The notes under the pieces are model-generated. The model did no database searches. It was not told where the DNA came from and saw only the letters and a program-made list of their open reading frames with translations. A stretch of DNA of 64,000 nucleotides. Origin: Xiphias gladius. Its lineage: Eukaryota; Chordata; Actinopteri; Istiophoriformes; Xiphiidae. The stretch lies in the NCBI RefSeq assembly GCF_016859285.1, contig NC_053414.1, positions 4,361,517 to 4,425,516 of the forward strand, given 5' to 3'. Below are positions 8,470 to 63,539 of this stretch, piece by piece. The position numbers and the translations under genes were made by a program. The stretch's first letter is position 1, and every line of letters starts with the position of its first letter.

Positions 8470-9200
8470 CCTCTCGTAGGGTCGTTAACACCTTGAGAGG
8501 TCACATGTGAGCCGTTGACCCACCTGGCCCTCCTGTGGGTCATTAAGGTCACATGAGCCAATACTGCATCTCAAGACTGCATTGTGAGAGGGTGACAGGT
8601 GGTGTCGTAGACCACCTGCTCTGTTTAATGATGGTCGTTCCAGTTTGAAGTAAATGGTTTTCTTTCACGCCTCCTTCAAACCATCGGTCTTCTCTGGCCA
8701 AAATGTGTACAGTTGTTCTGTCCTCAAATGAGTGTCCCATGTCCTGCAGATGTAGGTGGACCGCTGAGTCCCGAGTCCACGACAATGTTGTTCCGGTATT
8801 TGTTGATTTCTTCTCTGTCCGTCCTGTATCTTTTTGTGGTTCTGACGAAGGCCCGGTTTGGGTAACCACACGTTTTAAGCGCTCCCCAGCTTTTGTTCCA
8901 GTGGGTGATGAGAATCAAAGGGTAAATGCTGACCTGTGGGTCTGTGGTTTTTGTGTACACTTCAATGTTGAGGCGTCTGTCATCTGCAATGTGCACCACC
9001 CAGTCCAAGAAGGACAGACTACGTCCTCTGACATCCTCCCGAGTGAGCTTGATGTTGCCGTCCGCTGCACTGATCAAAGAGAGCTTCTCAAGGCAGACCT
9101 CAACCCAACTGAGCATGTTTTTCACTTCCCGAAGACACAACTGAGGGCAGAAAGACCCACGGACGAGCAGCAACAGCCTGGCAAAGCATCTCAAGGGAGG
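8470..9200 (-). mobile_element. Penelope-like retroelement fragment (RT tail plus GIY-YIG)
   Basis: Read on the minus strand, the higher-coordinate part (about 8860-9150) encodes reverse-transcriptase C-terminal sequence of Penelope-like elements: SFLDWVVHIADDRRLNIEVY (the usual FLD...VYRKPTHTDQY block) and KTCGYPNRAFV. The lower part (about 8600-8790), in another frame, encodes DSAVHLHLQDMGHSFED and ILAREDRWFEGGVKE. These are typical of the end of the GIY-YIG endonuclease domain in fish Penelope elements. The frame changes and the missing 5' portion show a dead, truncated copy. The order RT then endonuclease in the minus direction is the normal one. Confidence 0.75.
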
Positions 9201-9374
9201 ACACTCAGCATTTGGTGACGTCCATGGGTTCCAGACTTCAGGCAGTCCATGTCTTTATAAGCGTAAGGATTATTAAAAATAATCCTCTTGTTTATAATTA
9301 TGTTGGTTTGCCCGATCACTTTTGAGCCTCTGAAAATGAAGGACTATGTATAAAAATGGCTGTAAGTCCTAAAG

Positions 9375-11955: not shown

Positions 11956-14900
11956 ATGCCGCTGGACGGCGCGTTCACGGCGCTCCTCCTTCTGACCAGC
12001 GGAGTTTCGGCCGCGGCCGGTGAGTAGGTTCGCCCGCGGCACCGCGCTTTCGGCTCGCGGTCTGAAACGACTTCGAAGCGGTTCTCAGCAAAGTTTACGT
12101 GGAGCATCGGGAAGAATAACGTTGTAGAATAACACAGTCTGCTTTCTAATGAGATGAAATTAAAAAAGAATAAGAATCTCAACTCAAGAGGATCTGGAAA
12201 AGAAAATGCTGGGTCCGTTTCGTGCTTGGATTCTACACCCGTTATTAAAATCATTGCTAAAAAGAAGTAAAATTGGAAAGAAACGAGGAAAATTCACGTC
12301 GACACCCGCGCGTTTTACTGTTCACCGCTGAGTAAAGTTTGGGTTTTTATTTGAAAGAAAAAGAAAGTTGTGCATCGTAAGTGAGAAATAGTCAGAAAGT
12401 CTTTTTTTTTTCTTTCTTTCTCGCGATGCTGCAGAAATCAGTCGATTTGATCAAACGGTTAATCGACAGCAGATGAATTTTCCAAACTTCTCTAGTCGAA
12501 CTGTCCCCGGTGTCAGAATCTGCTGGGTCGGTTCGTTCGCTCGTTCATTTCCCGGTCGACTTTCGGTGACCTCGACGAGGTCGGCGCCGGGAAATTCACA
12601 GCACACACCCGGCTCATGTTTTCTCCAGAAGATGCTTATCTTCATTCAACTTCCAGGGAACCTGCGCGATACCGCGACGCTCTTGAGACATCGGGGGGGC
12701 AGGGGGGGGGCACGGTGCAGACCGCGTCTGTCACGCTTTTGGTTTTTTTGGTTCTTTTGGTTTTTAAATATCCAGCCAGAAGCAGCAGCCGCTTCCGTGT
12801 CCGCGAGGCGCACTTTGGGCGCAGCTGACTCATTTGTGACCAGCGTCGAGGTTTCAGAATGACGCGGGGGAGGTTCTGGGTTTTCCCGTCCTCCCTCCGG
12901 ACAGAAGTGAGCGTAACGCGGTTCCTCTGCGCTCGGACTCCTGAGCGGATGATACTACGTGTTGGGGGGGGGGGGGCAGGCAAAAGAAAACCTTACTGAG
13001 CCAACAGTTTCTGTTCCAGCGTGACATGCGGCACGTTACGCTCTGGAAATCAACCCTGGCACTCCCAGACCGGGGAGGGGCGGGGGGGGCAAAGGTCGAG
13101 GGCGAGGCCACCGGTTCCCCGGTTCTGTGTCGCCCTCGGAAGAGTGTGTGTGTGAGCGGCGGCGCGGCGGGCGACGCAACGCCCGCCCACGATGGTGTTG
13201 CTCACCTTTTCATCAGACCGTGGAAAACAAACATGCGGCGGACACACCTGTGCGCCACACTGTCAAAAGTATGTGGACGTGCATGGTTCCAATGGGGGGA
13301 GGGGGCTTTCAGTGGTAGTCAGTGCCAGGTCCACAAAGAAAGGGGGTCTCGACCGGCCCGCACGGAGCCCCTGACCTCAGCCCCCGTCCAGATCAATATC
13401 GCACTATTTGCGAATCGAAAACGTCTGGATACATTACGCTCGTACGCGCGGGTCTGGTGCGAGGCTCCGGAGGAATGCTGGAGAGCAACCGCAGGGCGGC
13501 TGAACATACCGGCCTGGCCGAGCGCCTGAACGTGTTTTAGTTTAAAACGTGGCCGTCGGTTTTAAATTTGGGTTTTTTTTTTCTCAAACCGCTCTATTTC
13601 TTTTTATTTTTCTGTGTATCAAGCGATTAACACACAGCAAACGTCATATTATTCCGCCCCAGGAGAACTGTAAGGTTTTTTCCATTTATCGATACACCTG
13701 ACAGTTATTGTCTTTAATAATCGATCGTTTATTGAGTCTGTAAAATGCCACAGAATGGTGAAAGGGTCAAGTTAACATATTCCTCATTGTGTTGTTGTTT
13801 TTTTTTTTTCCTGATCAACAGGAAACTGGAAAACTAGCTAATATTCATTTGTGCGAAGCTGGAACCGTCGAGCATCTGCTGAAAACGGACTTATCGGTTT
13901 TCAAAAATCGTTGCCACTTGATCTAAAATAATTGAAAGTTTATTTAACTCAGTGGGACTGAGATGTCCTTAGAGGCCCCCTTTTGTTTTTAGGAGTTTAA
14001 CCCAGCTGAACCTGAAGGCTCCGGGGTTCACCACGCGACAGTTGGTTTGCGGTGGTTTAACCGATGGCGACTTTGCTAGCCTATCCTCGGCGAAATAAAT
14101 GAGCTGGACGGGGCAGTAGAAACCCGGTCCGTGCAACGAAACAAAACAAAAGCGATCGCAGAGTTAAACCGCGGCTAAGTCTCGTAAACAGTTTCGACGG
14201 AAAACCGGACACTGGAACCTTCATGAAGGAGGATTTATTGCAGGACAGTTGCATCAGACAGGATTAGTTTTTAGTCAGGAAGTTCTTAATAAACTGCCAA
14301 CTAATAAACTCTTATTTGCAAACCCGACATTTTGGGCCGGTGCGGTTTTGGAACCAGAGCCAAGTTGATTTGAGCGTCCAAAACTGAAGGGGTCCATCCG
14401 CTGGGGAGCACGATTGTATATGTGTAACCTCACACGTATGTCATTCGAGTCTGGCTGGGGACCCCTGTGTTGCATCTCTCCGTTTTAGGTTTTTGTATTA
14501 AGGTGCACAAATGCCCCACAGCTACCGTTGTGTACACAGAGTACCGAACCAGCGTTCACTCAGGGGTCTCGTCTCCTCTCCTACAGTTCCGCCTCCAACC
14601 AACGTGACTTTGAGCTGCCAAAATCTCAAAACCACAGTCAGCTGGGAATACAGCAAACAGCAACCGCCAACCTACTTCAGCGTTCGTATCGGATCATCTG
14701 CTGGGTAACACTCAACTGATATTCTACTACATGACATGAAATTCATAATTCATATTTTTTAGTTATTATTTGTTATTATTATTTTTATTTGTTATTATTA
14801 TTTATTTATCTAGATTTTAGTTGCATTTTAGTTTTTGCCTATAAGTTATGTAAAATGTGTATTGGTTTTTTTTGGGGGGGGCTATTTCTACATAATTATT

Positions 14901-17900
14901 AGGCAGTAATTATGATCGTGGACTGTTTTAGCTACATATCAATAAAAATTACGATTTATCAAAACATTTTTAAGCTGAAAAAAATGTTAGGATTTATCAC
15001 TATTATATAGATATATATCTATATATCTATATAGATATAGATATATAGATATATATAGATATAGATATATAGATATATATAGATCGATCTATCCATATCT
15101 ATATAGATATAAAAATATATATATAGAGATATATATATTTTTTTTATAGATATCTATATCTATAAAAATATATCTATCTATCTGTCTATCTATAGGTAGG
15201 TAGGTAGGTAGGTAGGTAGGTAGATAGATATACTCACACACACGCAGATGCTCAGTTATCAGTTTATTAGGAACACCTTGCTAAACTATTTCAGTCTGAT
15301 ACAACAGTCCCGTGATAGATCCTCAATCATGAAGGTTTCAGTGGTCAGTTTTTGTTGAAACTATGTTAAAGAAGTGTCGACTCCACTGTGTGACGGTTGT
15401 GTAGGACGTAGTCTATGGTGCTGCCGAACTGCACGTCGACAGGTGTGCCCATTATTTTGTCCACTCCATTCAAATCGAATGAGGGTAGGCTGGACAACAG
15501 AAACGCCTCTTCGTATGATGCAGCGCAGCTCAGCGGCTCCACAAACTACATCCCCCGAAACGATCGCACAGTTGAATCATCCTCTTAACGCAGTTTCAAC
15601 GAAACCTGAACATTACAACCTTCACAGAGGAGGATTTATTGCAGGACAGTTGCATCAGACAGGATTAGTTTTTAGTCAGGAAGTTCTTAATAAACTGCCA
15701 ACTAATAAACTCTTATTTGCAAACCCGACATTTTGGGCCGGTGCGGTTTTGGAACCAGAGCCAAGTTGATTTGAGCGTCCAAAACTGAAGGGGTTCATCC
15801 GCTGGGGAGCACGATTGTATATGTGTAACCTCACACGTATGTCATTCGAGTCTGGCTGGGGACCTGTGTTGCATCTCTCCGTTTTAGGTTTTTGTATTAA
15901 GGTGCACAAATGCCCCGCAGCTACCGTTGTGTACACAGAGTACCGAACCAGCGTTCACTCAGGGGTCTCGTCTCCTCTCCTACAGTTCCGCCTCCAACCA
16001 ACGTGACTTTGAGCTGCCAAAATCTCAAAACCACAGTCAGCTGGGAATACAGCAAACAGCAACCGCCAACCTACTTCAGCGTTCGTATCGGATCATCTGC
16101 TGGGTAACACTCAACTGATATTCTACTACATGATATGAAATTCATAATTCATATTTTTTAGTTATTATTTATTATTATTATTATTATTTGTTATTATTAT
16201 TATTTGGGGGGGGCTATTTCTACATAATTATTAGGCAGTAATTATGATCGTGGACTGTTTTAGCTACATATCAATAAAAATTACGATTTATCAAAACATT
16301 TTTAAGCTGAAAAAAATGTTAGGATTTATCACTATTATATAGATATATATCTATATAGCTATATAGATATATATAGATATATCTATATAGATATCTATAG
16401 ATCGATCTATCCATATCTATATAGATATAAAAAATATATATATAGATAGAGATATATATATTTTTTATAGATATCTATATCTATAAAAATATATCTATCT
16501 ATCTATCTATCTATAGGTAGGTAGGTAGGTAGGTAGGTAGGTAGATAGATATACTCACACACACGCAGATGCTCAGTTATCAGTTTATTAGGAACACCTT
16601 GCTAAACTATTTCAGTCTGATACAACAGTCCCGTGATAGATCCTCAATCATGAAGGTTTCAGTGGTCAGTTTTTGTTGAAACTATGTTAAAGAAGTGTCG
16701 ACTCCACTGTGTGACGGTTGTGTAGGACGTAGTCTATGGTGCTGCCGAACTGCACGTCGACAGGTGTGCCCATTATTTTGTCCACCCCATTCAAATCGAT
16801 TGAGGGTAGGCTGGACAACAGAAACGCCTCTTCGTATGATGCAGCGCAGCTCAGCGGCTCCACAAACTACATCCCCCGAAACGATCGCACAGTTGAATCA
16901 TCCCTCTTTAACGCAGTTTCAACGAAACCTGAACATTACAACCTTCACAGAGGAGGATTTATTACAGGACCGTTGTGTTAGACTGCGTTAGTTTTAGCTG
17001 ACAGTACCTAATAAACTGACAGGTGAGTGTATATATGATATCGTTGAATAACCTTTTGGTTGCCGATTGAACTAAGCAAGAGCTCTTCGGCTGAACCCCG
17101 TGGATTTTATTTTTTGGATTGACTGACACACGTGCTGCTTTCTGTCTGCGTTAGCGTGATGTTACTCGTGGGATTAATCTGCCGTCTCCTTGCTTTTATT
17201 CAAGGCCTTATGAGAATGAAACCGCGGACCACCGGTATGATCTGAGCCATTTTGTCTGGAAAACCGAAGAGCACTACATGGGCTTCCATTACGTCAATGT
17301 AACAGCCATACAGGGAAGCACCAAGTCCCTACCAGTACAGTCCAAATCCCTCACCTTTAATAACTTGAAGACGGCTCATATAAAATGTAAGTAATAGGTA
17401 GAGATAGAAATGTGTTTATTTCACAACAGATCACGTCACTTCCTGGAGCGTGACGCAGGTCAGAGGAAGATGTTGGAGTTATGAAATTTCGTTGCGTAGT
17501 TTCTCCTGCAGAGAATCAAATCTAAACTGCTCTTTACAGGTGCTTTGGATTTCCCCCCCGCGAAACTGACCTCAGAGGACTCGGGGACAACAGTCAGTTT
17601 CCAGAATCCCCTCCACTTCTACAAAGAACTGAAACAGGCCAACAAGTTGCACAAAGTCTTCTTTGAATTCAACGTCTCTTCGGATGACGTAAGTTCCATA
17701 AATTTCAAGATTGAGATTTTATGATTCAGTTCTTAATTGAACTCAGATTTAAGTACGGGATGACGGAGAGCTCAAACCGGATATTCTTAAAACTGCATTT
17801 GGAGGATGGTGCTGTTATGCAGACTGACACACAGTGGAAAGGCCACAAGTCCAAAGCCCTACGTAAGCCCCCAAAACAAAGTCAGGTACATGAGTATTTG

Positions 17901-20900
17901 GACAGTGACACAATTTTCGTGATTTGCCTCTGCGCGCCACCACGATGGATTTGAAACCACGCCGTCAAGATGGGATTGAAGTGTAGACTTTCAACTTTAA
18001 TTCAAGGGGTTTTCAACCGTTTAGGAATTAGGATTATTTTTAGTATTTGGATGAAAATCCTTTGCAGCCAACGACTGCCTGAGGTCTGGAAGCCATGGAC
18101 GTCACCAAATGCTGAGTTTCCTCCCCTGGGATGCTTTGCTACACTTCAATCACATCTTAATGGCTTTGTTTCAAATCCACCGTGGTGGTGTAATATTTCC
18201 TCCAGCTCCCAGAGTTTCCCTGAGGATGGTGCTCATTTTTTGATTATCGTTTTGATTCTGAAGTAAAAGGAAGGGGACGTGACGGAATCGCTTTTTTTTT
18301 CTTGTCAGTGTAACAGTCAAATACTTGGAGATTTTCAGTTTTCAATTATATCAAACAGAGGCAAGCAGTATATCCTGAAACTCCAACCAGCAAATAAATT
18401 CTCTGTCCATGAACTAATCAATCAATCAGCAAATCCTTTCAACCCTATTTTCATCCTCTGGGGAGACTGAATATGCGCAGTATATTAATACAACACATTG
18501 GAGGTCAAATGCTTGTTTCATTATTATGATAATATGAAAATAAGATATTAATTATCTGTGTTCTGTGACTTTCAGAGACATTTTGAGTCAGTTTGCAGCT
18601 CGGAACAGATCATTTGCAAGGAAGTCATCTCGTTCCCTGAGGGCGTGGAGGAGTGCGTCACGCTGAAAGGATGGTTGGGTGGTGAGAAGAGCGCCGACAG
18701 AGTGGTGTTCAGAGAGACGGGCCTCATCTGCCTCAGCAAATCAGAGGGCAAGTCTGGGAAGGTTTAATCATATCCTGCATGCCGCGTCAAAAATGTGTCT
18801 ACTGTAGGGCTATAGTGAACACAAGAGAGGCTTGGTCAACTGAGATCGTAGCTACTCGTCAACCAATCGACTGGTCGCGGGGGGGGGGTATGCTTGTCAT
18901 CACAAGATGAACTAAATCGGCCACGGGATACTGAGTGCTCTCTACCTGGTAGCCTTATTAGCCTGAATTAATGATAAATAATAGCTAGTATTTGCAGCAT
19001 ATTAAATAGTTTTAATCTAATTATTTTATACTGATAACAACAGACTCAGCGCCGACCGGCGTGCTACTACCCATATTCGTACGATCTCTGAAAACAGAAC
19101 TATGTCAACTGGTGATCCCAGCACAAGACCTATTGAGGAAAATACACTCAAAGCCTCAGGCGTTAAACACGGAACATTGACAGAGCTTCCTAACGCAGAC
19201 AAAGTCAGACTGCAGTTTTTAGACGATGTTGGTTGTTGAGGTTGCAGCGTTTACACTCGACCTTCTGGTTTGTTGTAACAAAACGCAGCCACGCCAACAA
19301 TGAGTTTGGCATGACTCTCAGAGTAGACGATGGCGATGAACCTACAGAGAACTGTCACTGGGTACCTCTGCCAAGGACCTGTGTCTGCTTGTCAGTTTGC
19401 TTGTCGGAAGGATTAAGCAACAGCTACTGCACACTGATCCCTCCACCGAGTGGGGGTTGGGCCAGGGAAGAACCCATTACATTTTGGAGCGGATCCAGGA
19501 CTTTATTAATTTCCTTAACATTGCGAGAGAGGGCATTTTTCGCCTCGACGGAGGTATGCGCTGTTCTCGGTGCCGGTCTAGTTTTAATTGTGATTTATGG
19601 ACCAGACAAGTACGACACTGACACTAATAGAGACGACAGTAACGCCCCATCAAATCTAAACCATGGACATTCTGCTGTGTTGAGGGGTTGTAGGGCTGTC
19701 ACCGCTTTGTGACGATCATTATACCCGTCCTGACTCATTTTTCCCTTTTGCTCCTCACTGCAGGAACAAAGTAAAAGCAACAGTGCACATAATATTAATT
19801 CTACTTTATATTTCACCGACTATCAACCAAATTAAACTGCTGATGTTTTGCACGATGCACTCAACGTTACCTGAGGGCGAACTTGTTGTTGCGCCTCCAC
19901 AGGTCACAGAATCCGCCGGGTCACAGAGTGCAGCGTATCACCAACGGGAAGCTGAGGCCAAGCACTCGTCCTTCTCAAGTCCTCAAAAATAACACGAGAT
20001 CTTAGCTCGACATGTCGGACGATTTGCAGTTGTTCTGTTGGTACGTCGCTGAGTGATCAGACCCTTGTTTACATGATCGGTCTTGTTTTTCTTTGCTGAT
20101 GCCTGCGGTGTCAGAGAAGGAGGCGAGAGAGACTAAACGGAGCTTGTGAACGAAACGATTCAATGAGGGATTCGTTGGGCGCGGAGCCAATTCCACTTTG
20201 GATCCAGTTCTAATGCTGGTAAAATGCCCGGATTTTTTATAGGAAGCTGACATGAGGCTTCGGTCTGAGTTCGGCAAATCAACTGAACGTCTTCCAAAGT
20301 TAGCAGTTCAGAATCCGCCCTTTGTGTTTCTGACAGTTCCCTCGCTGAGCTGCAGTTGAGGGTTAGTCACTCGAAGAGGGAATTGATTGTCCACCTCCGA
20401 CCTCTCCCGCCTCATTTTGGGTTCAGATAAACTTGTTTTGGGATGTATTTTTGCACAGAAAACAAAGACTTGTTGATTTCGTGCCCCACCTCGTACATTG
20501 GAAGTGCATCTCTTAGTGGCCGGGATGAACAGGAGGACTGATTACAGCAAGCAAAAACTGATCCAACATACATATGGTCGTCAGACTGTCGTTTTCAGAC
20601 AGATTTGAAAAATGGTGACCATATCCTTAAAAATAAAACTTACGTTAAGTAAGAAAATTTTCAATGAAGCTAATTTTTTTTTTTCTTAAATTTCAGAGGG
20701 CAACGCAGAGGTGACGCTTACTATACTGCTGTGTGTTGTTATCCTCGTAATCTGTTTGATAACAGCTGCCATCTGTAAGGTGAGGGCCTGGACAATGAAG
20801 CTACAAAGTCCACCCAAAGCTCTGGTAAGTTGTCATATTGGGGGGGGGGAAACCCCCAAAACACTAGTAATTATGTTGTTTTTCATCTTTGTGACACATG

Positions 20901-21322
20901 TTGTCTGTCTCTGTCTTCTTGTCACCAAGGACTTAGAGCTGTCAAACCATGGTGAACGGCACTTGAGGTATAATACTGTGGCCACCACACCGATCAGTGT
21001 TGTCCGACTGATAAAGGCGAACGGCTCCACAGAGAACCTCCAGGACAGCGGCCTCTGCTCGGTCTTGCAGCATCTCACCAAATCCCTCTACGCGACAGGA
21101 GGACTTTCGGAGGAAAGCAGCCAGAGGCTGAAAGCTGTGGGGTTGATGTCCGAGGGACACGGGACAGATGACGACTCTGCAGACGACTCTTTGAAAACAG
21201 AGTGTGTTTCGATGGATGAGGCGGAAGAGGAAACGGAACCCGTGTCAAACTATGACCGCCCGCACATTCTGCAAGCGGACATAGGTGATGGAGACATGGT
21301 CGAGGTTTACACCAAGAGGTAA
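11956..21322 (+). CDS. ifngr1: Interferon gamma receptor 1 (ligand-binding chain), seven coding exons
   Basis: Class II cytokine receptor that binds interferon gamma at the cell surface and signals through JAK1 and STAT1. Coding exons are 11956-12019, 14587-14704 (with an identical alternative at 15986-16103), 17205-17386, 17540-17688, 18576-18747, 20697-20824 and 20930-21322. Phases agree at every junction and give 401 residues. Visible parts are a signal peptide (MPLDGAFTALLLLTSGVSAA), two fibronectin-type extracellular domains (about 22-228) with NxT/S glycosylation sites, a membrane helix at about 234-255 (VTLTILLCVVILVICLITAA) and a 130-residue tail. The tail contains TPISVVR, comparable to the JAK1-binding segment, and YDRPH at about 379, matching the YDKPH STAT1-docking motif of mammals; that motif is the best evidence for identity. 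The exon layout is that of the family. Oddities are the duplicated exon 2, a GC donor after exon 5 and an in-frame-open last intron. Whether this is the crfb13 or crfb17 paralogue is unresolved. Confidence 0.92.
12980..13240. other. CpG-rich part of ifngr1 intron 1
   Basis: GC-rich intronic sequence with a poly-G run (12963-12976). It holds open frames from composition only; no splice-consistent exon was found. Confidence 0.4.
13250..13450 (+). mobile_element. Tc1/mariner relic in ifngr1 intron 1
   Basis: ACTGTCAAAAGTATGTGGAC resembles the terminal repeat of a fish Tc1 family. Further on, TCAGTGCCAGGTCCACAAAG and a GACCGGCCCGCACGGAGCCC block resemble the later transposase region (the AGTCCTGACCTCAACCC part). 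It is internally deleted and frame-broken. Confidence 0.5.
14185..14306 (+). mobile_element. Right end of inverted-repeat element D (older copy)
   Basis: CAGTTTCGACGGAAAACC through CCTTCATGAAGGAGGATTTA to TTCTTAATAAACTGCCAAC matches, with divergence, the right end of the element at 16915-17030. It lies just upstream of ifngr1 exon 2 and supplies the left partner for the recombination that duplicated the exon. Confidence 0.7.
14587..14704 (+). CDS. ifngr1: ifngr1 exon 2, copy 1
   Basis: 118 bases between a TCCTACAG acceptor and a GGGTAACA donor, encoding the first half of D1 (PPPTNVTLSCQNLKTTVSWE onward to RIGSSAG). It takes one base from exon 1 and passes two to exon 3. Its length is not a multiple of three, so it cannot be joined in series with copy 2 without changing frame. 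Confidence 0.85.
15000..15232 (+). repeat. (TAGA)n/(TAGG)n AT-rich microsatellite, unit 1
   Basis: Interleaved TATAGA and ATCTAT tracts form self-complementary stretches, followed by TAGG tetranucleotides at about 15193-15222. It recurs as the unit 2 copy at 16335-16552 with different repeat counts. Confidence 0.85.
15251..15628 (+). mobile_element. Inverted-repeat element D, left part in unit 1
   Basis: Starts TCAGTTATCAGTTTATTAGG and runs to the recombination block. Its first 110 or so bases are the inverted complement of the right end at 16915-17030, so the intact form has long terminal inverted repeats. The right end here is replaced by that of the older copy (from 15641), forming a chimaeric element. 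Confidence 0.75.
15629..16963 (+). repeat. Direct tandem repeat, unit 2 (contains second ifngr1 exon 2)
   Basis: Second unit of the exon-bearing duplication, about 1.32 kb and shorter than unit 1, mainly through a deletion in the intron after the exon. It is followed by the authentic right end of the younger element D. Confidence 0.9.
15986..16103 (+). CDS. ifngr1: ifngr1 exon 2, copy 2
   Basis: Base-for-base identical to 14587-14704, with the same acceptor and donor. Use of either copy alone gives the same protein. Use of both shifts exon 3 into a frame that reads a TGA as its third codon. It may be alternatively used, silent, or an assembly duplicate; the chimaeric transposon junction argues for a real duplication. 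Confidence 0.8.
16571..17030 (+). mobile_element. Inverted-repeat element D, complete copy
   Basis: About 460 bases with long inverted arms: the left end TCAGTTTATTAGGAACACC.. and the right end ..TACCTAATAAACTGACAGGT pair over roughly 110 bases. There is no transposase frame. I recognise this as a common non-autonomous element of fish genomes; its autonomous partner is not evident. Confidence 0.75.
17886..18215 (+). mobile_element. Palindromic non-autonomous element in ifngr1 intron 4, family B
   Basis: The left arm (GACAGTGACACAATTTTCGT, CCACCACGATGGATTTGAA, GATTGAAGTGTAGACTTTCA) is the inverted complement of the right arm (CTACACTTCAATCACATCTT, CAAATCCACCGTGGTGGTG). The two arms flank about 100 bases. 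It matches the fragment at 9375-9530. Confidence 0.7.
19365..19600 (+). repeat. Dispersed fish repeat in ifngr1 intron 5
   Basis: The ordered blocks CTCTGCCAAGG, TGTCAGTTTGCTTGTCGGAA, GGGCCAGGGAAGAACCCATT, TTTTGGAGCGGATCCAGGA, GAGAGGGCATTTTTCGCC and GGAGGTATGCGCTGTTC are, from memory, a very common interspersed repeat in fish. Its class is not determined here. Confidence 0.55.
20825..20929 (+). other. ifngr1: ifngr1 last intron, open in frame
   Basis: A 105-base GT-AG intron with donor CTGgtaagt and acceptor CACCAAG, and a run of ten G at 20840-20849. Its length is divisible by three and it has no stop in the receptor frame. Retention would insert 35 residues, including the hydrophobic stretch LVIMLFFIFVTHVVCLCLLV, just after the membrane-proximal segment. 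Confidence 0.75.
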
Positions 21323-43660: not shown

Positions 43661-46600
43661 CTGTGCAACAGAGCCACAAGTTGTCATGGAAATTCAAAGG
43701 ACCGTCAGTGACTGCAATTATTTTGCTCCGATATTTAATATTTTCAGATGTTTCATTTTTCATTTTTAACAATTACTCTGTGTTACTCTAAGAATTGTAT
43801 CCTTATCCGACCGGATAAGCCACTGGAGCTGCATTTAGACCATAGCAGGACACTTCAACTCTCCACTGAACCCAAACAGGTGAAATTATTTTGGGGCCAA
43901 TTCGATTGACAGAAAAATTTATGAGAGTTTTAGCAGAGGAAATTAAGTTTGAACTGAGAGGAGAGAACTGACTTTACTCCTCAAATTCAGTTTTGTTCTC
44001 GAAGACTCACAGAGCTGCAGCCTGTTTCTCGGAGAAGACCCTGATGACGAAGTCGGCCTCGTGGTGGGGCTGGAAGGTGGTGGGGACCAGCAGGTATTTT
44101 CCAGGAGGCAGCGTGAAACGCTCCGACACCTCCCGCATGTTGATGTAGGCCCTGCTACGAGCCTTGGATGAATGGTAGCGGAAGAAATCCTTCCCCTGGT
44201 GGTCCTCGTCGTCTGGAGCCTGAATGGACAGGAGATTAAATTAGCCTGAGTGGAAAAAATAGGATAATTAACATGGAAAAACGCATTAAGCAACACAATA
44301 AGATTAGTAAAGGGCGGAAGTACAAGGCTAACAGACAACAGGGTTTTCAGATTATTTGACAAGTAGGCCTAGGTCCCTTTAGTAGCCATCTTTACGCTTT
44401 TGATCATATTAAATGATCTTCATCATGCTATTGTAGATGCTAATATTTCCGTTTTTCTGAGAATTTTAAAGCCTTCTCGTCCGTATTTCCTTCTCATTCT
44501 GCTACAGCTCTATCGGCGGATGGCGACCAAGTGATATGTCCGAAAGCTCCAAAGCAGCTACTAAATGGACTTTGAGGTGAGGTTGTGTGGTCACCTGCTG
44601 TTTCCAAAGTCAAGAATTCAATTGAACCTGAGCAGGCATATGATTATGGTGAGAAATACATTTTAAATGGAGAAACTGTGATTATTCTGATTGTGAACTG
44701 CAAGAGACCAAAGCTTCCTTTTAAACGTTATTTTTAGAGCTGATATTTAATGGATAACTCTGGGACTTTTGAACCTGGGTCTTTTCCCACGATTGTGGGT
44801 GTAAATGATTGATAGGGACAAAAATCTTTGCAATTGGTCCACTGCTGAGCAAGAACGGTACAATAAGGTCCAGGTTCAAAAATCCCAGAGTTATCCTTTA
44901 ATATCTATAAGGGTCCAGTAAGTCATTTTTAACCATTATTACTACCGATAAATTTATTCTACTTAAAAAAAAAACTTAAATAGTCATATATTCAGTGGAC
45001 CACACTTTTTACACGTCTGTCCAAGGTGTTTGTTTTTTGCAGCTCTGTGTATTTCTTGAAAATACCCACTCTGTTGTTGCATATAATTTTAGGTGTATCA
45101 CAAGGATCAATGTTAGGCCATTTATTCTAGCAGAATAAATCGTTATCTTCCAACTGCAACGTCCATTTTTATGCCGATGATACCATTGTGTGTGTTGTGA
45201 TTGATCTCAATAAGACTTGCTGAAAAGAAGATAGTTTTGCTTACTAAATACATAGTTATAATGAAATTAATTTTCTAGTAAAAAAAAAAAAAAGTTAAGA
45301 AAGTAGCCTTTCTGTATTTCCTAATTTATCTGTTGGACTGCAGAAAAAATGGCATCAAATAATAGATAAAATAAAAATACATCATTAACGAAGTGCACTG
45401 TAATCACTCATTTTGGTATTTTTCTTCATTGCAAATATATTTGAAAGAAAAAATATATAAAAATAATATATACAGTAATATAATACATATTTTTTTCACA
45501 GGCTCTCCTCTGACTAATTATACACTAAGTTAATGTCTTCACATCCATTCAATGTGTCCATAACATTTGTATATTTTTGGAACGAATATCTGCTTACAGC
45601 AAGTATAAACATAGACATTTCTTTTAGACCACATGTCATCAGACAGTTTATTCTATTATAATAATTTTGATATTATGTCTTTTTACATTAGTCCATTTTA
45701 ATATAGTTAAAGGAATGGGAGTAGTTAAAGCCAACATGGAGTCCTGACCCAAAGGTTGAGAAACTCTGTTCTGATGATTTACATCCCTACCCGGAAACAC
45801 TGTCATGGATAATAGATTTGAAACTGCAAGTTCTTTTATACAGAGAAAAAGCGACACCATTAAAAGAAGAACACTTGAAGCAAGTCTGAGGCTCAAACAT
45901 GTTGGTTTTTTTGCTTTTTTCTGACCTCGTACAATGCGAAGCCGATGGTCTCCAGTTCCATGCCTTCCTTCCTCAGCTTTCGTCTGTTCTTCTGCATCAG
46001 CGCGACCACCACGCTGCACACGTCGTCGTCGTCATCGGCGTCCTCCAGCTGCAGCTTGAACTGCGGGTTGGTCCAGAACGTGTCTGCGGATTGAAGATGC
46101 AGAGTTTTAGAGGGATATGAAGACCGACTGAAATGAGACTGACATTTGAACAGTTTAATGCCAAAAGGCAACATATCAAATCAATGTTCATTCTCATGTC
46201 AGGCTTTAATTTTCAGGTCACCATCATCAGCTGGTGGTCTCACCGATGTAGTTCCTGCAGCCTCCAGCGGTGGAGCCGCGGATCCAGTTTCCCTCGAACA
46301 TGCTGACTTCCCAGTGGCGCTTTGTGTTGTCGCTCAGGGAGTCCGGGGTCATGTTGCAGATCTCCACCTTGTCGTAGTTCCTCTTGAAGTCCTCAAACTC
46401 CATCCTGGGGTTGCAAAAACCATCAGTGTCACCTCGGATTACAGCACACTCACAAGCGTTCAGCCTTACGGCATCTAACGTATCGCCACATAGTTCAACT
46501 CTAAAATGGCACAATCGTCAACAGTACAAAGCCAATCTATAAATTATATAAGGTGATTTTTAAAAAAATACATTTTGCATACTTAGATAGTTAATGGTCG

Positions 46601-56336: not shown

Positions 56337-59300
56337 CTACTGTTCTGCTTTCTCTTGTGCAGTTCCCGTCACCAGCAGCAGGTTGCAGGCCATGAACTGG
56401 ACGTTCAGCACGTTGCTGGTGTTTCCGGCGTAGAGTCCCACCAGTTCGCCGGACGAGCCGTCGGCTGGCGTCCCGCCGTGGGAGTTGCGGATGTCCCACA
56501 CCCGGACGGAGTTGTCCATAGACGAGGACGCCACCAGGCTGCTGTCCGGGCTGAAGGACAGGCTGGTAACGCTGTCTGTGTGTCCCCGCAAGTCTTTAAA
56601 CAATGTCCCCGACGCCAAGTCCCACAGCTTCACCCGCTGGTCCTCGCCGGCGGACGCCAAGTACTTCCCGTTGGGTGAGAAAGCGAGCGACAGCACGGGG
56701 CCGCGGTGGCCGGTGAAGAGGCGAACAGACGCCCCCTGCTGGGTGCTCCACAGCCGGACAGTCTTGTCTGTGGAGCCGGTGGCCAGGTAGTTGGAGTTGG
56801 GGTGGAACTTGACACAGTCGACGTCGGCGAGGTGGCCGGCGTAGAGCCGCAGCGAGTAGGTGCGGGAGAACGTCCAGAGGCGGGCGGTGCGGTCGTGGGA
56901 GCCGCTGGCAAAGTACAGGCTGCAGGGGCTGACGTCCACGTCCCACACCGGGTAGGCGTGGCCCTGGTAGAGCGCCGTGTTGGTGAAGCTGCCCAGGTCC
57001 CAGTAACGTATGGTCGTGTCCTCAGAGCAGGACAGCAGGCCGGAGCTGTCCGTCAGGAAGGCGGTACGAAACACCGGGCCGCTGTGACCCCGCAGCGTCT
57101 TTATCTCGCTGCCGGAGCCGTCCTCCTCATCCACCTGAGGAGAAAGGAGACGAAAGAGAGACATCTGACATCACCTGTCTCTGTCCTGCACTGTTAACTC
57201 TGTCTTTTGAAAACATTTGAATGAGTTCAAATCATGGGGAAAAAAAATTTCAACTCTTTGTGATATGAAAACTGCAGCAAACAATTATATTCATTATCCA
57301 TTAATCTGTTGATACTTTTCTAAATTAAGTGTTTCGGGATAATCACATATTATAGGGTTTATTCACATTGATGAAGCTGTAACTGTGCCCCCCAAATAAA
57401 AGATGACTCGAAGGGATTCATCAATTATCACAACAGTTGCAGATTAATTTTCTGTGGATTAATGAATTGACTAATTGATCACTGTAGCTTCAATCAGTTA
57501 ACCAATCGAACCAAACAGTCCTCAAATCAATTAGTTTCACAAATGAGGGTGAATTATGTTTCCATTTAAAATCATTGAAATAAATAGAAATACATAATAA
57601 ATGGAAACACCGATTCTGATCAAACTAAATAGGAAATGTTATGAGGAACTTTTGGTTCTCCATTATGCAGTCTGTAAATTGTGAAGTAATTAAAACCCTA
57701 AACTTTGCAAATAAATAAACCGGCTATTGAAAGGAATCAATAACGTCCAATGAAACAAATAGTCACTTCATTTTCTAATGTAATTTTAATCATTTTGAAT
57801 TAATCAATGGTCATTTAGCAAGAAACACTTCTAAATATTTCAAACCTGGGGATTCACTCCTTTAACTGTTTTACACCACTGTAAATTGAGTATCTTTATC
57901 TGAACTCACCCTGAGCTCCAGAAACTCGTGGTGAATATTTTTCTACATTTTCTGGTATTTTATAGACCAAAAGAATAAATGTGAAAAATGAAAAAGACAG
58001 ACAGACAGAAATCATAGAAGCCATAATCCTGAGGTGCAGCCCTAATAAGCTACGCATACTATCACAATCTGCAAAAACAGGGACAACTACACAGGAACCC
58101 TGCTCCTACTGCCCTGCTTCCGTCGATGTGTCGTCACTGTTTTAACTCCAAAATACATTCGAGCCGCTATACACAACCACTAGACCGGATTTCTCTCTTA
58201 AATCACCTCACCTCCTCCTCCAGGACGTCACAGGCCAGGTGGACGTGCGACACGTCAGCCTGATGCGGCTTGGCCTTCAGCTTTCTGGCTCGGAGGCTCC
58301 ACAGCTTCACCGTGGAGCTGTCGAAGCCGGCGGCCAGCAGCCGACTGTCAGCCGAGACCTCGGCGGTGTTCAGCATCTGCTCCGTGTGGTGGAAGGCGTA
58401 AAAACACACAGTGGTGAGCGAGGGGGGGCCCTCACGCACTTTCTTGATGCAGTCCTGCAGAGCCTCCAGGGCCGCCTCGCTCTGTGGGATCCCTGCGGGG
58501 ACCTCCAGCCCCTCCCTGCCCTCCGCCCCGTCCACTCCCGCCCAGGAGGTGGTGGAGTTTGGGGCGGCAGTTGCCCCGCTGGCGGCTCCATACAGCTGGT
58601 AGTCCGTGCGCCTGGAGGCGGTGACCTCCACCTGCAGGTGTGTGCTGAGGGCCCTGCAGAGGGCGCTGTTGTCCTCGCTCTGCAGGTAACGCAGCAGGTA
58701 GCTGTAGGCCGGCTCCGTCAGGTGAACCACGTACTTGTGCTCCAGGAAAGCACTCAGCTTTGGATTGGCTGCCACATCCTGAGCGGTGAGAACGTGGCGG
58801 AGCTGCTCAATGGTGGCACGCTGCTCGCTGTCCTGAAGAAAGGCGCCGTGGAAGCGACTGTAAAAACCATCTACTGCCCCCTTCAGGCCACATCGCACCA
58901 TGTCCAGGTGGAGGTAGACGAAGAGCGGGTAGAGGATGCTGCTCACCTCCTTCGCCCAGGAAATTTCTGCTTCTAGTTCAGGGGAAATAAAAAATTCTCT
59001 GAGGGATTTGTAAAAACAAGATCATGTAGCCTCTAAAACGGACATGTAAATGAGATTCGTTGGATAAATCTTTCCCAGGCAAAATCAGGCATTTTAACTG
59101 GTAACTACTGGCCATGTCCGAGCACGACGCACAGCTGCGTTGTGCAGCTGTGCGGTGATCCGGTGGCTGTGCAGCATGAATGTGGACTTGGTACCTGACA
59201 GAAAGGAGCGCAGCCTGGAGTACTGAGTCTCGTACTGCTGCGGGTCAGACTGGCAGGGTGCAGCAGAGACGATGTTGGCACAGCCCGACTCTGTCTGCAC

Positions 59301-62729: not shown

Positions 62730-63034
62730 TCAGTTTAAGTGCAGCAGTTCAGAAAGAAAGGGATCCACCTCACAGAAGGTTTCGATCAGGATCCGACAAG
62801 CCGGGTTTCCCTTTCTTAGCACCGTGTCGATCAGCTCTCGTGCTCTGTCTGCCCTGGGCATTGCTTGAATCGACTCCATTTCCCTGCTGTTCAAAACCCT
62901 GTTCTGCAGAAGCGTATCCAGCAGGTCGTTTAGAACAGAAGTGGACACTCTGTCAATAAACTCTGTCCGACTAGAGAACAGCTTCCTCTCTTCTTCTCCT
63001 GCCCTTTGTAGTTTTTGCCCACTTGGACCAGGAC
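62730..63034 (-). CDS. C-terminal CARD exon of an inflammasome-type protein (partial)
   Basis: A single exon with acceptor AACTTCCAG, entering in phase 1, encodes about 100 residues and a stop. A short linker (PGPSGQKLQRAGEEERKLF) precedes a complete caspase-recruitment domain: FIDRVSTSVLNDLLDTLLQN, RVLNSREMESIQA, RADRARELIDTVLRKGNPAC and FCEVDPFLSELLHLN. Sequence and helix pattern are nearest to CARDs of caspase-1, ASC and fish NLRP1-type proteins, which bind partners through CARD-CARD contact. Because the CARD is the last exon, a caspase (whose CARD is N-terminal) is unlikely; an NLR or adaptor is more likely. The exons upstream on the minus strand were not found before the window end and may lie outside it. 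It could also be a remnant. Confidence 0.65.
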
Positions 63035-63539
63035 CTGGAAGTTAAGAAGTAGAATACTTAAAGTGGATAGCTAGTAGGGAATTTTAAATATTTAGTTTTA
63101 GTCTTGCTGGTCCTTCTGTCTGGGCTCATTAGAGATGCCGAATTGGTAACAGCTGTGACCGAGCTGCGGCTTCTTGACGTGAGCAAGAACACGGTGCATT
63201 GCAGTAGCAGAGACATGGGGAGAGAAAACTTCATTTCTCTGCATTATTTGCTCGTTTACATCCCTTGGCCAAAAGAGCAAAGGGAACAAGGTACGAGGTG
63301 TTGTTCATCAAGGCTCTAAAACTACTGGTAAAAAAAACAAAGATTCCTAGAACAACTTGATACTGAACAAGTCCTCAAAAAAGAAAACAAGACTATCAAC
63401 AACCCCACACATGTTCTCTGGCCACCAGGAGTGTTTTTCAGATCGCTTGTGTGGCCTAAAGACAATAGACCTGTGAACAGACACAGTACAGGTTCCCCTC
63501 GTGTGGATCAACTACTGAGGTGGGCTATGTAACGGTCTT

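Follow-up and report, generated by a model that had tools for sequence, protein, structure and literature searches.

We analysed a 64,000-nucleotide stretch of the Xiphias gladius genome (contig NC_053414.1, positions 4,361,517 to 4,425,516 of the forward strand; hereafter the window), which lies in a contig of 33.9 Mb (C15) and holds an ifngr1-like gene, a candidate interferon-gamma receptor, whose exon 2 occurs twice. We judge from the sequence, with a probability of roughly 0.78, that this arrangement is a real and recent tandem duplication of one exon, mediated by a palindromic repeat element of which three copies lie at the locus. A preliminary description of the window had proposed such an event; what it observed is true, its interpretation is largely right, and the case adds a further example to a kind of event already known. 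The repeat units and the exons within them are these:

14227..15627, + strand: first repeat unit, 1401 bp, from the unit alignment
15628..16950, + strand: second repeat unit, 1323 bp, from the unit alignment
14587..14704, + strand: ifngr1 exon 2, first copy (2a), 118 bp, AG/GT borders
15986..16103, + strand: ifngr1 exon 2, second copy (2b), identical to 2a

The direct repeats are adjacent, each contains one 118-bp exon 2, and the two exons are base-identical, as had been reported; the aligned lengths of the units likewise agree with the about 1.4 and 1.3 kb given for them. Identity around the exon copies continues for 68 bp upstream and 30 bp downstream, and in the alignment that the preliminary description had suggested (14100-15660 with 15500-17050), near-identity runs from 14227/15628 to the third copy of the element. 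With the low-complexity stretch 14741-15235 omitted from the count, the alignment of the units has 5 substitutions over 891 bases (0.56%; Poisson interval on the 5 substitutions, 1.6 to 11.7 events) and 3 indels, a divergence that bears out the proposed recency of the event. Most of the difference in unit length is due to a 67-bp indel and to changes in a microsatellite: each unit has a low-complexity stretch of tetranucleotide type (14741-15235 and 16140-16556), with the 67-bp indel in the left part. We considered the exact identity of the two exons as a signal of selection and rejected it; this identity is not notable because a divergence of 0.56% predicts only about 0.66 differences in 118 bp.

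The evidence that ties the duplication to the repeat element comes from the three copies, E1 to E3, that flank and separate the exons:

14177..14304 (start at 14177 or 14188), + strand: E1, a single arm of the palindromic element, upstream of exon 2a, delimited by blastn against other copies
15250..15709 (ends approximate), + strand: E2, the chimaeric element, its left part from E3 and its right part from E1, from alignments and diagnostic sites
16569..17031 (ends approximate), + strand: E3, the full-length palindromic element, which other genomic copies match nearly end to end, from the family alignment
15628..15640, + strand: the switch point, a 13-bp block common to E1 and E3 (also at 14227-14239 and 16951-16963)

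A shared block, GGAGGATTTATT, had been described inside the element at 14228, 15629 and 16952; we found it there, at spacings of 1401 and 1323 bp, and at no other site in the window (shuffle mean 0.01). The preliminary description also held that the middle element is a chimaera of the outer two, which a three-way alignment bears out. Left of the 13-bp block, within the element, 20 of the 23 ungapped diagnostic sites in E2 are E3-like, and right of it all 19 are E1-like; when the non-homologous flanks are added, these counts become 32/35 and 39/39. Consistent with the claim that the sequence right of the block follows the first element, GCAGGACAGTTGCATCAGAC occurs in the window only at 14240 and 15641, even with up to 3 mismatches permitted. 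No exact match between the arms of E1 and E3 exceeds the 13-bp block; the next ones listed are 10, 10, 8 and 8 bp long. The structure of E2 is what the in-register joining of two diverged repeats leaves.

The element itself is about 460 bp long, palindromic and dispersed in the genome. With 16570-17025 as the query, it has at least 80 matches in its own genome, taken from the best 40 of 1757 first-look candidates; this count is a lower bound, and the copies match in both orientations because the element is palindromic. When E3 is aligned with 28 other copies, some of which are truncated at one end, the ends are sharp and the terminal inverted repeats long. Of the 29 rows, a loose pattern count finds 14 with TA at the left end and 23 with TA at the right, 11 rows having it at both. 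In its inverted repeats, its ends and this TA count, the element resembles a miniature inverted-repeat transposable element (MITE), putatively of the Tc1/mariner superfamily.

Two statements about the individual copies had to be revised. The first copy had been taken as a whole element; it is a single arm only, from about 14177/14188 to 14304, since all 50 blastn alignments from the 28/28 other genomic copies against 12000-14600 lie inside 14177-14305. The third element had been called younger and the first older, and we reject this distinction: mean identity to other copies of the family is 79.3% for E1 (27/28 copies) and 81.3% (25/28) and 79.2% (27/28) for the two arms of E3, so that all three are about equally distant from the family. 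An independent insertion of E2 was rejected as well. Among the matches listed, the other copies are 71-79% identical to E3 in the better orientation, whereas E2 is 96% identical to it. The two arms of E2 still pair with each other.

We propose that the ancestral order would have been E1 arm - exon 2 - E3, and that a repair or replication event may have joined E3 to E1 in register, either through unequal exchange between the homeologous copies or through a template switch at the 13 bp. The product would be E1 - exon 2 - E3/E1 - exon 2 - E3. The preliminary description had named unequal crossing-over as the route; its view that the repeat element is involved stands and crossing-over is a possible route, but template switching fits at least as well, because E1 and the right arm of E3 share only about 111 bp (75.7% identity) and the longest match, 13 bp, lies exactly at the switch. 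Classical unequal crossing-over between the two element copies, that is, non-allelic homologous recombination (NAHR) in place of template switching, is a serious though somewhat less favoured option. The chimaeric element is in register and the structure of the product is exactly as NAHR predicts. Substrates on which NAHR is efficient are usually longer and less diverged than the shared stretch here, which spans about 111 bp at 76% identity and has no run of identical bases beyond 13. In addition, a study of Alu elements suggests that some Alu-Alu junctions, among them chimaeric joins of different family members, may come from microhomology-guided template switching and not from homologous recombination (PMC6902434).

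To see what the duplication would mean for the protein, the gene was modelled from the sequence alone. It lies on the + strand, begins with a probable exon 1 (11956-12019) and ends with a stop codon (21320-21322); besides exons 2a and 2b, it comprises:

11956..12019, + strand: probable exon 1, with an ATG and a signal peptide MPLDGAFTALLLLTSGVSAAA and a phase 1 end before GTGAGT; predicted
17205..17386, + strand: exon 3, the site of the premature stop when 2a and 2b are both spliced in
17540..17688, + strand: exon 4, from the gene model
18609..18747, + strand: exon 5, from the gene model, with a GC donor
20697..20824, + strand: exon 6, with the putative transmembrane segment
20930..21322, + strand: exon 7, with the putative cytoplasmic tail, YDRPH and the stop codon

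Exon 1 was chosen by a scan for an ATG, a hydrophobic stretch and a phase 1 donor, which a single candidate passed; in the exons downstream of exon 2, all frames are open and all splice borders are present. The identification as an interferon-gamma receptor, already made in the preliminary description, is supported by matches in the ectodomain. Translated exon 2 gives a hit to the Pfam family PF01108 (Tissue_fac) at E=3.3e-06 and 27.3 bits, barely over the cut-off of 27, and all 4 matches of the spliced protein to the PDB (E up to 1) are to IFN-gamma receptor 1, though weak, at E values of 0.015 to 0.031 over residues 1-63. No Pfam family was above its cut-off for exon 3 or for the stretch of exons 6-7, whose translation reads as a hydrophobic segment followed by a tail with YDRPH. 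We take YDRPH to be the STAT1-docking type of motif of the IFNGR1 tail.

Two features of the introns are recorded here. Intron 5 of the model starts with GC at 18748-18749 (AGGGCAAGT) and is a GC-AG intron. Intron 4 holds a further inverted repeat (17937-18188) with 50-nt arms that are 88% complementary; a translated stretch similar to it lies on the minus strand within 8727-9254.

The preliminary description missed a consequence for the reading frame: exon 2 is 118 bp long, 1 mod 3, so that the frame breaks when both copies are spliced in. We computed the frame for four isoforms. With a single copy, 2a or 2b, the open frame counted from the first full codon of exon 2 has 368 codons before the normal stop. 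If both copies are included, a stop follows after 80 codons, at the third codon of exon 3, and if neither is, after 12 codons. For a transcript to encode the receptor, exactly one copy of exon 2 must be spliced in, because 118 is not a multiple of 3 and both or neither shift the frame. The splice sites of 2a and 2b are identical, with a distance of 1281 nt, so that splicing would be expected by default to include both copies. Many transcripts should then carry both, be truncated and become subject to nonsense-mediated decay, the fate that PMC5224494 states for such messages from duplicated exons in general. The donor of exon 2 scores -0.78 in a simple matrix, compared to 2.9 to 6.5 for exons 3-6. 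A donor this weak may let some transcripts drop one copy and keep the frame, and some skipping of this kind is plausible. The allele is probably one of reduced function or near-neutral.

A second ifngr1-like gene may lessen the cost of a frame-breaking duplication. It lies in another contig (C11) at about 9,054,500 to 9,058,600, where the genome search gave an E value of only 0.06; the surrounding stretch (9052501-9061500) contains a frame like that of exon 2 and, besides it, a transmembrane exon and a tail with GYEKRQ. For its exon-2 peptide, the IFN-gamma receptor again ranks first in the PDB, though weakly (E=0.027), ahead of GM-CSF receptor alpha (0.039). The benefit may be limited, however, as the two fish receptors serve partly different ligands (PMC5332411).

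Several points weigh against an element-mediated duplication with these consequences. The sequence of one assembly stops short of proving that the duplication is real or how frequent it is, and a divergence of 0.56% is of the order of heterozygosity within fish, which false haplotype duplication would also be expected to produce. Within E2, 3 of the 23 diagnostic sites left of the block are E1-like, all of them beside an indel. Crossing-over and template switching are not separable from the sequence, so that both routes stand, and we infer the inclusion of both copies and the decay of the message rather than observing them.

An assembly artefact is unlikely. Exon 2 would then truly be single, and two haplotypes of the region would have been placed in series, as a false heterotype duplication. 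The low divergence of the units fits this, and false exon gains are on record: PMC9516828 documents such gains and reports 4 to 16% of sequence as falsely duplicated in earlier assemblies of three species. Several of the examples in that source, not all, are marked by assembly gaps, whereas there are no N bases in the window, nor in 145,179 other bases. A random misjoin, moreover, would not place the join, as here, in exact register inside two divergent copies of the same repeat. To misjoin via the repeat, an assembler would have had to be satisfied with 13 identical bp or with about 111 bp at 76% identity. No other direct repeat of at least 150 bp at 90% identity or more was found in the surrounding 104 kb or within the 29 other loci compared. 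In a search of the same genome (690.8-Mb assembly, 1298 contigs), exon 2 is present in two copies (2/2 candidates) with no third. Of the 31 matches to the 5' flank (13640-14180), a single one spans its full length and the remaining 30 are short, partial ones. Because there are only these two copies of the exon and a single full-length match of the flank, no alternative haplotype contig was found.

It is slightly less probable still that the two exons form a nascent mutually exclusive pair, in which one copy is regularly skipped, perhaps looped out by the inverted arms, and the gene is normal. Each copy alone is in frame and both together disrupt it, each lies between inverted arms of the element, and the simple matrix gives exon 2 a weak donor. 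Flanking complementary sequences promote skipping in C. elegans (PMC8330042), and the E1 arm pairs with the left arm of E2 at -120 kcal/mol, compared to a mean of -37 over 30 shuffles. In contrast to these strong pairwise duplexes, an equilibrium fold of 2.9 kb has almost no long-range pairing: the expected pairs are local, 96.1 within E2 and 95.7 within E3, with 0.0 between E1 and the left arm of E2, 0.0 between the right arm of E2 and the left arm of E3, and 2.1 between E1 and the left arm of E3. We rejected the looping-out of an exon copy by inverted arms on these grounds; the modelled fold counts against intrinsic looping-out at equilibrium and leaves a kinetic version standing. Because 2a and 2b share the same sequence and the same splice borders, neither bears a mark for skipping, and the tandem duplicated exon events annotated in human are mostly ancient (PMC9741552). 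It is quite improbable that this is a newborn exclusive exon pair in an immune receptor, seen while its copies are still undiverged, with the arms of the causative element looping out one copy co-transcriptionally so that the frame is kept.

If an element-mediated duplication is confirmed, the locus would be a clean, young case in which a short, diverged palindromic repeat duplicated an exon, with the junction resolved to the base. It would also allow a direct test of how a newborn exon duplication that breaks the frame is tolerated, a stage that has to come before mutually exclusive exons. The consequence for the frame is the most useful addition made here, as it turns the locus into a candidate reduced-function allele and a testable start for the evolution of exon pairs; the allele may be a segregating loss- or reduced-function allele of a fish interferon-gamma receptor. 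An annotation pipeline may silently choose one copy, so the gene model of the species needs checking. Among the titles listed for ifngr1 exons, ifngr1 exon duplication, MITEs and exon duplication in fish, and exon duplication with inverted repeats, none concerns this exon; we do not claim novelty in print.

Elsewhere in the window, three further genes or exons lie on the minus strand:

44010..46517, - strand: calpain gene, with Calpain_III clear at 44010-44240 and below the cut-off at 46230-46517
56340..59021, - strand: TAF5-like gene, with WD40 repeats and a TFIID_NTD2 domain
62733..63041, - strand: exon with a CARD domain

Among the closest known systems is the duplication of exons 2-6 of human LDLR, in which AluSx copies that are 77% identical were joined at 23 bp of microhomology and left a chimaeric Alu (PMC10835926). 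In both cases, two diverged copies of a short repeat in the same orientation flank the exon or exons, and the in-register join lies inside a block of microhomology and leaves a chimaeric repeat. The repeat here, unlike Alu, is a palindromic fish element and not a short interspersed element; one partner is an arm only, and a single 118-bp exon is doubled. The gene is like the teleost IFNGR1 receptors CRFB13 and CRFB17 (PMC5332411) in its class II cytokine receptor ectodomain and, putatively, in a transmembrane segment and the YDRPH tail motif; it differs from them in its doubled exon 2, and may be either of the two paralogues. Like tandem mutually exclusive exons, the two copies are adjacent, homologous and of the same phase, and their joint inclusion breaks the frame. 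Unlike in such pairs, the copies here are still identical and give no isoform diversity, and exclusive splicing is only hypothetical. Tandem duplicated, mutually exclusive exons were reportedly treated by Kondrashov and Koonin in 2001.

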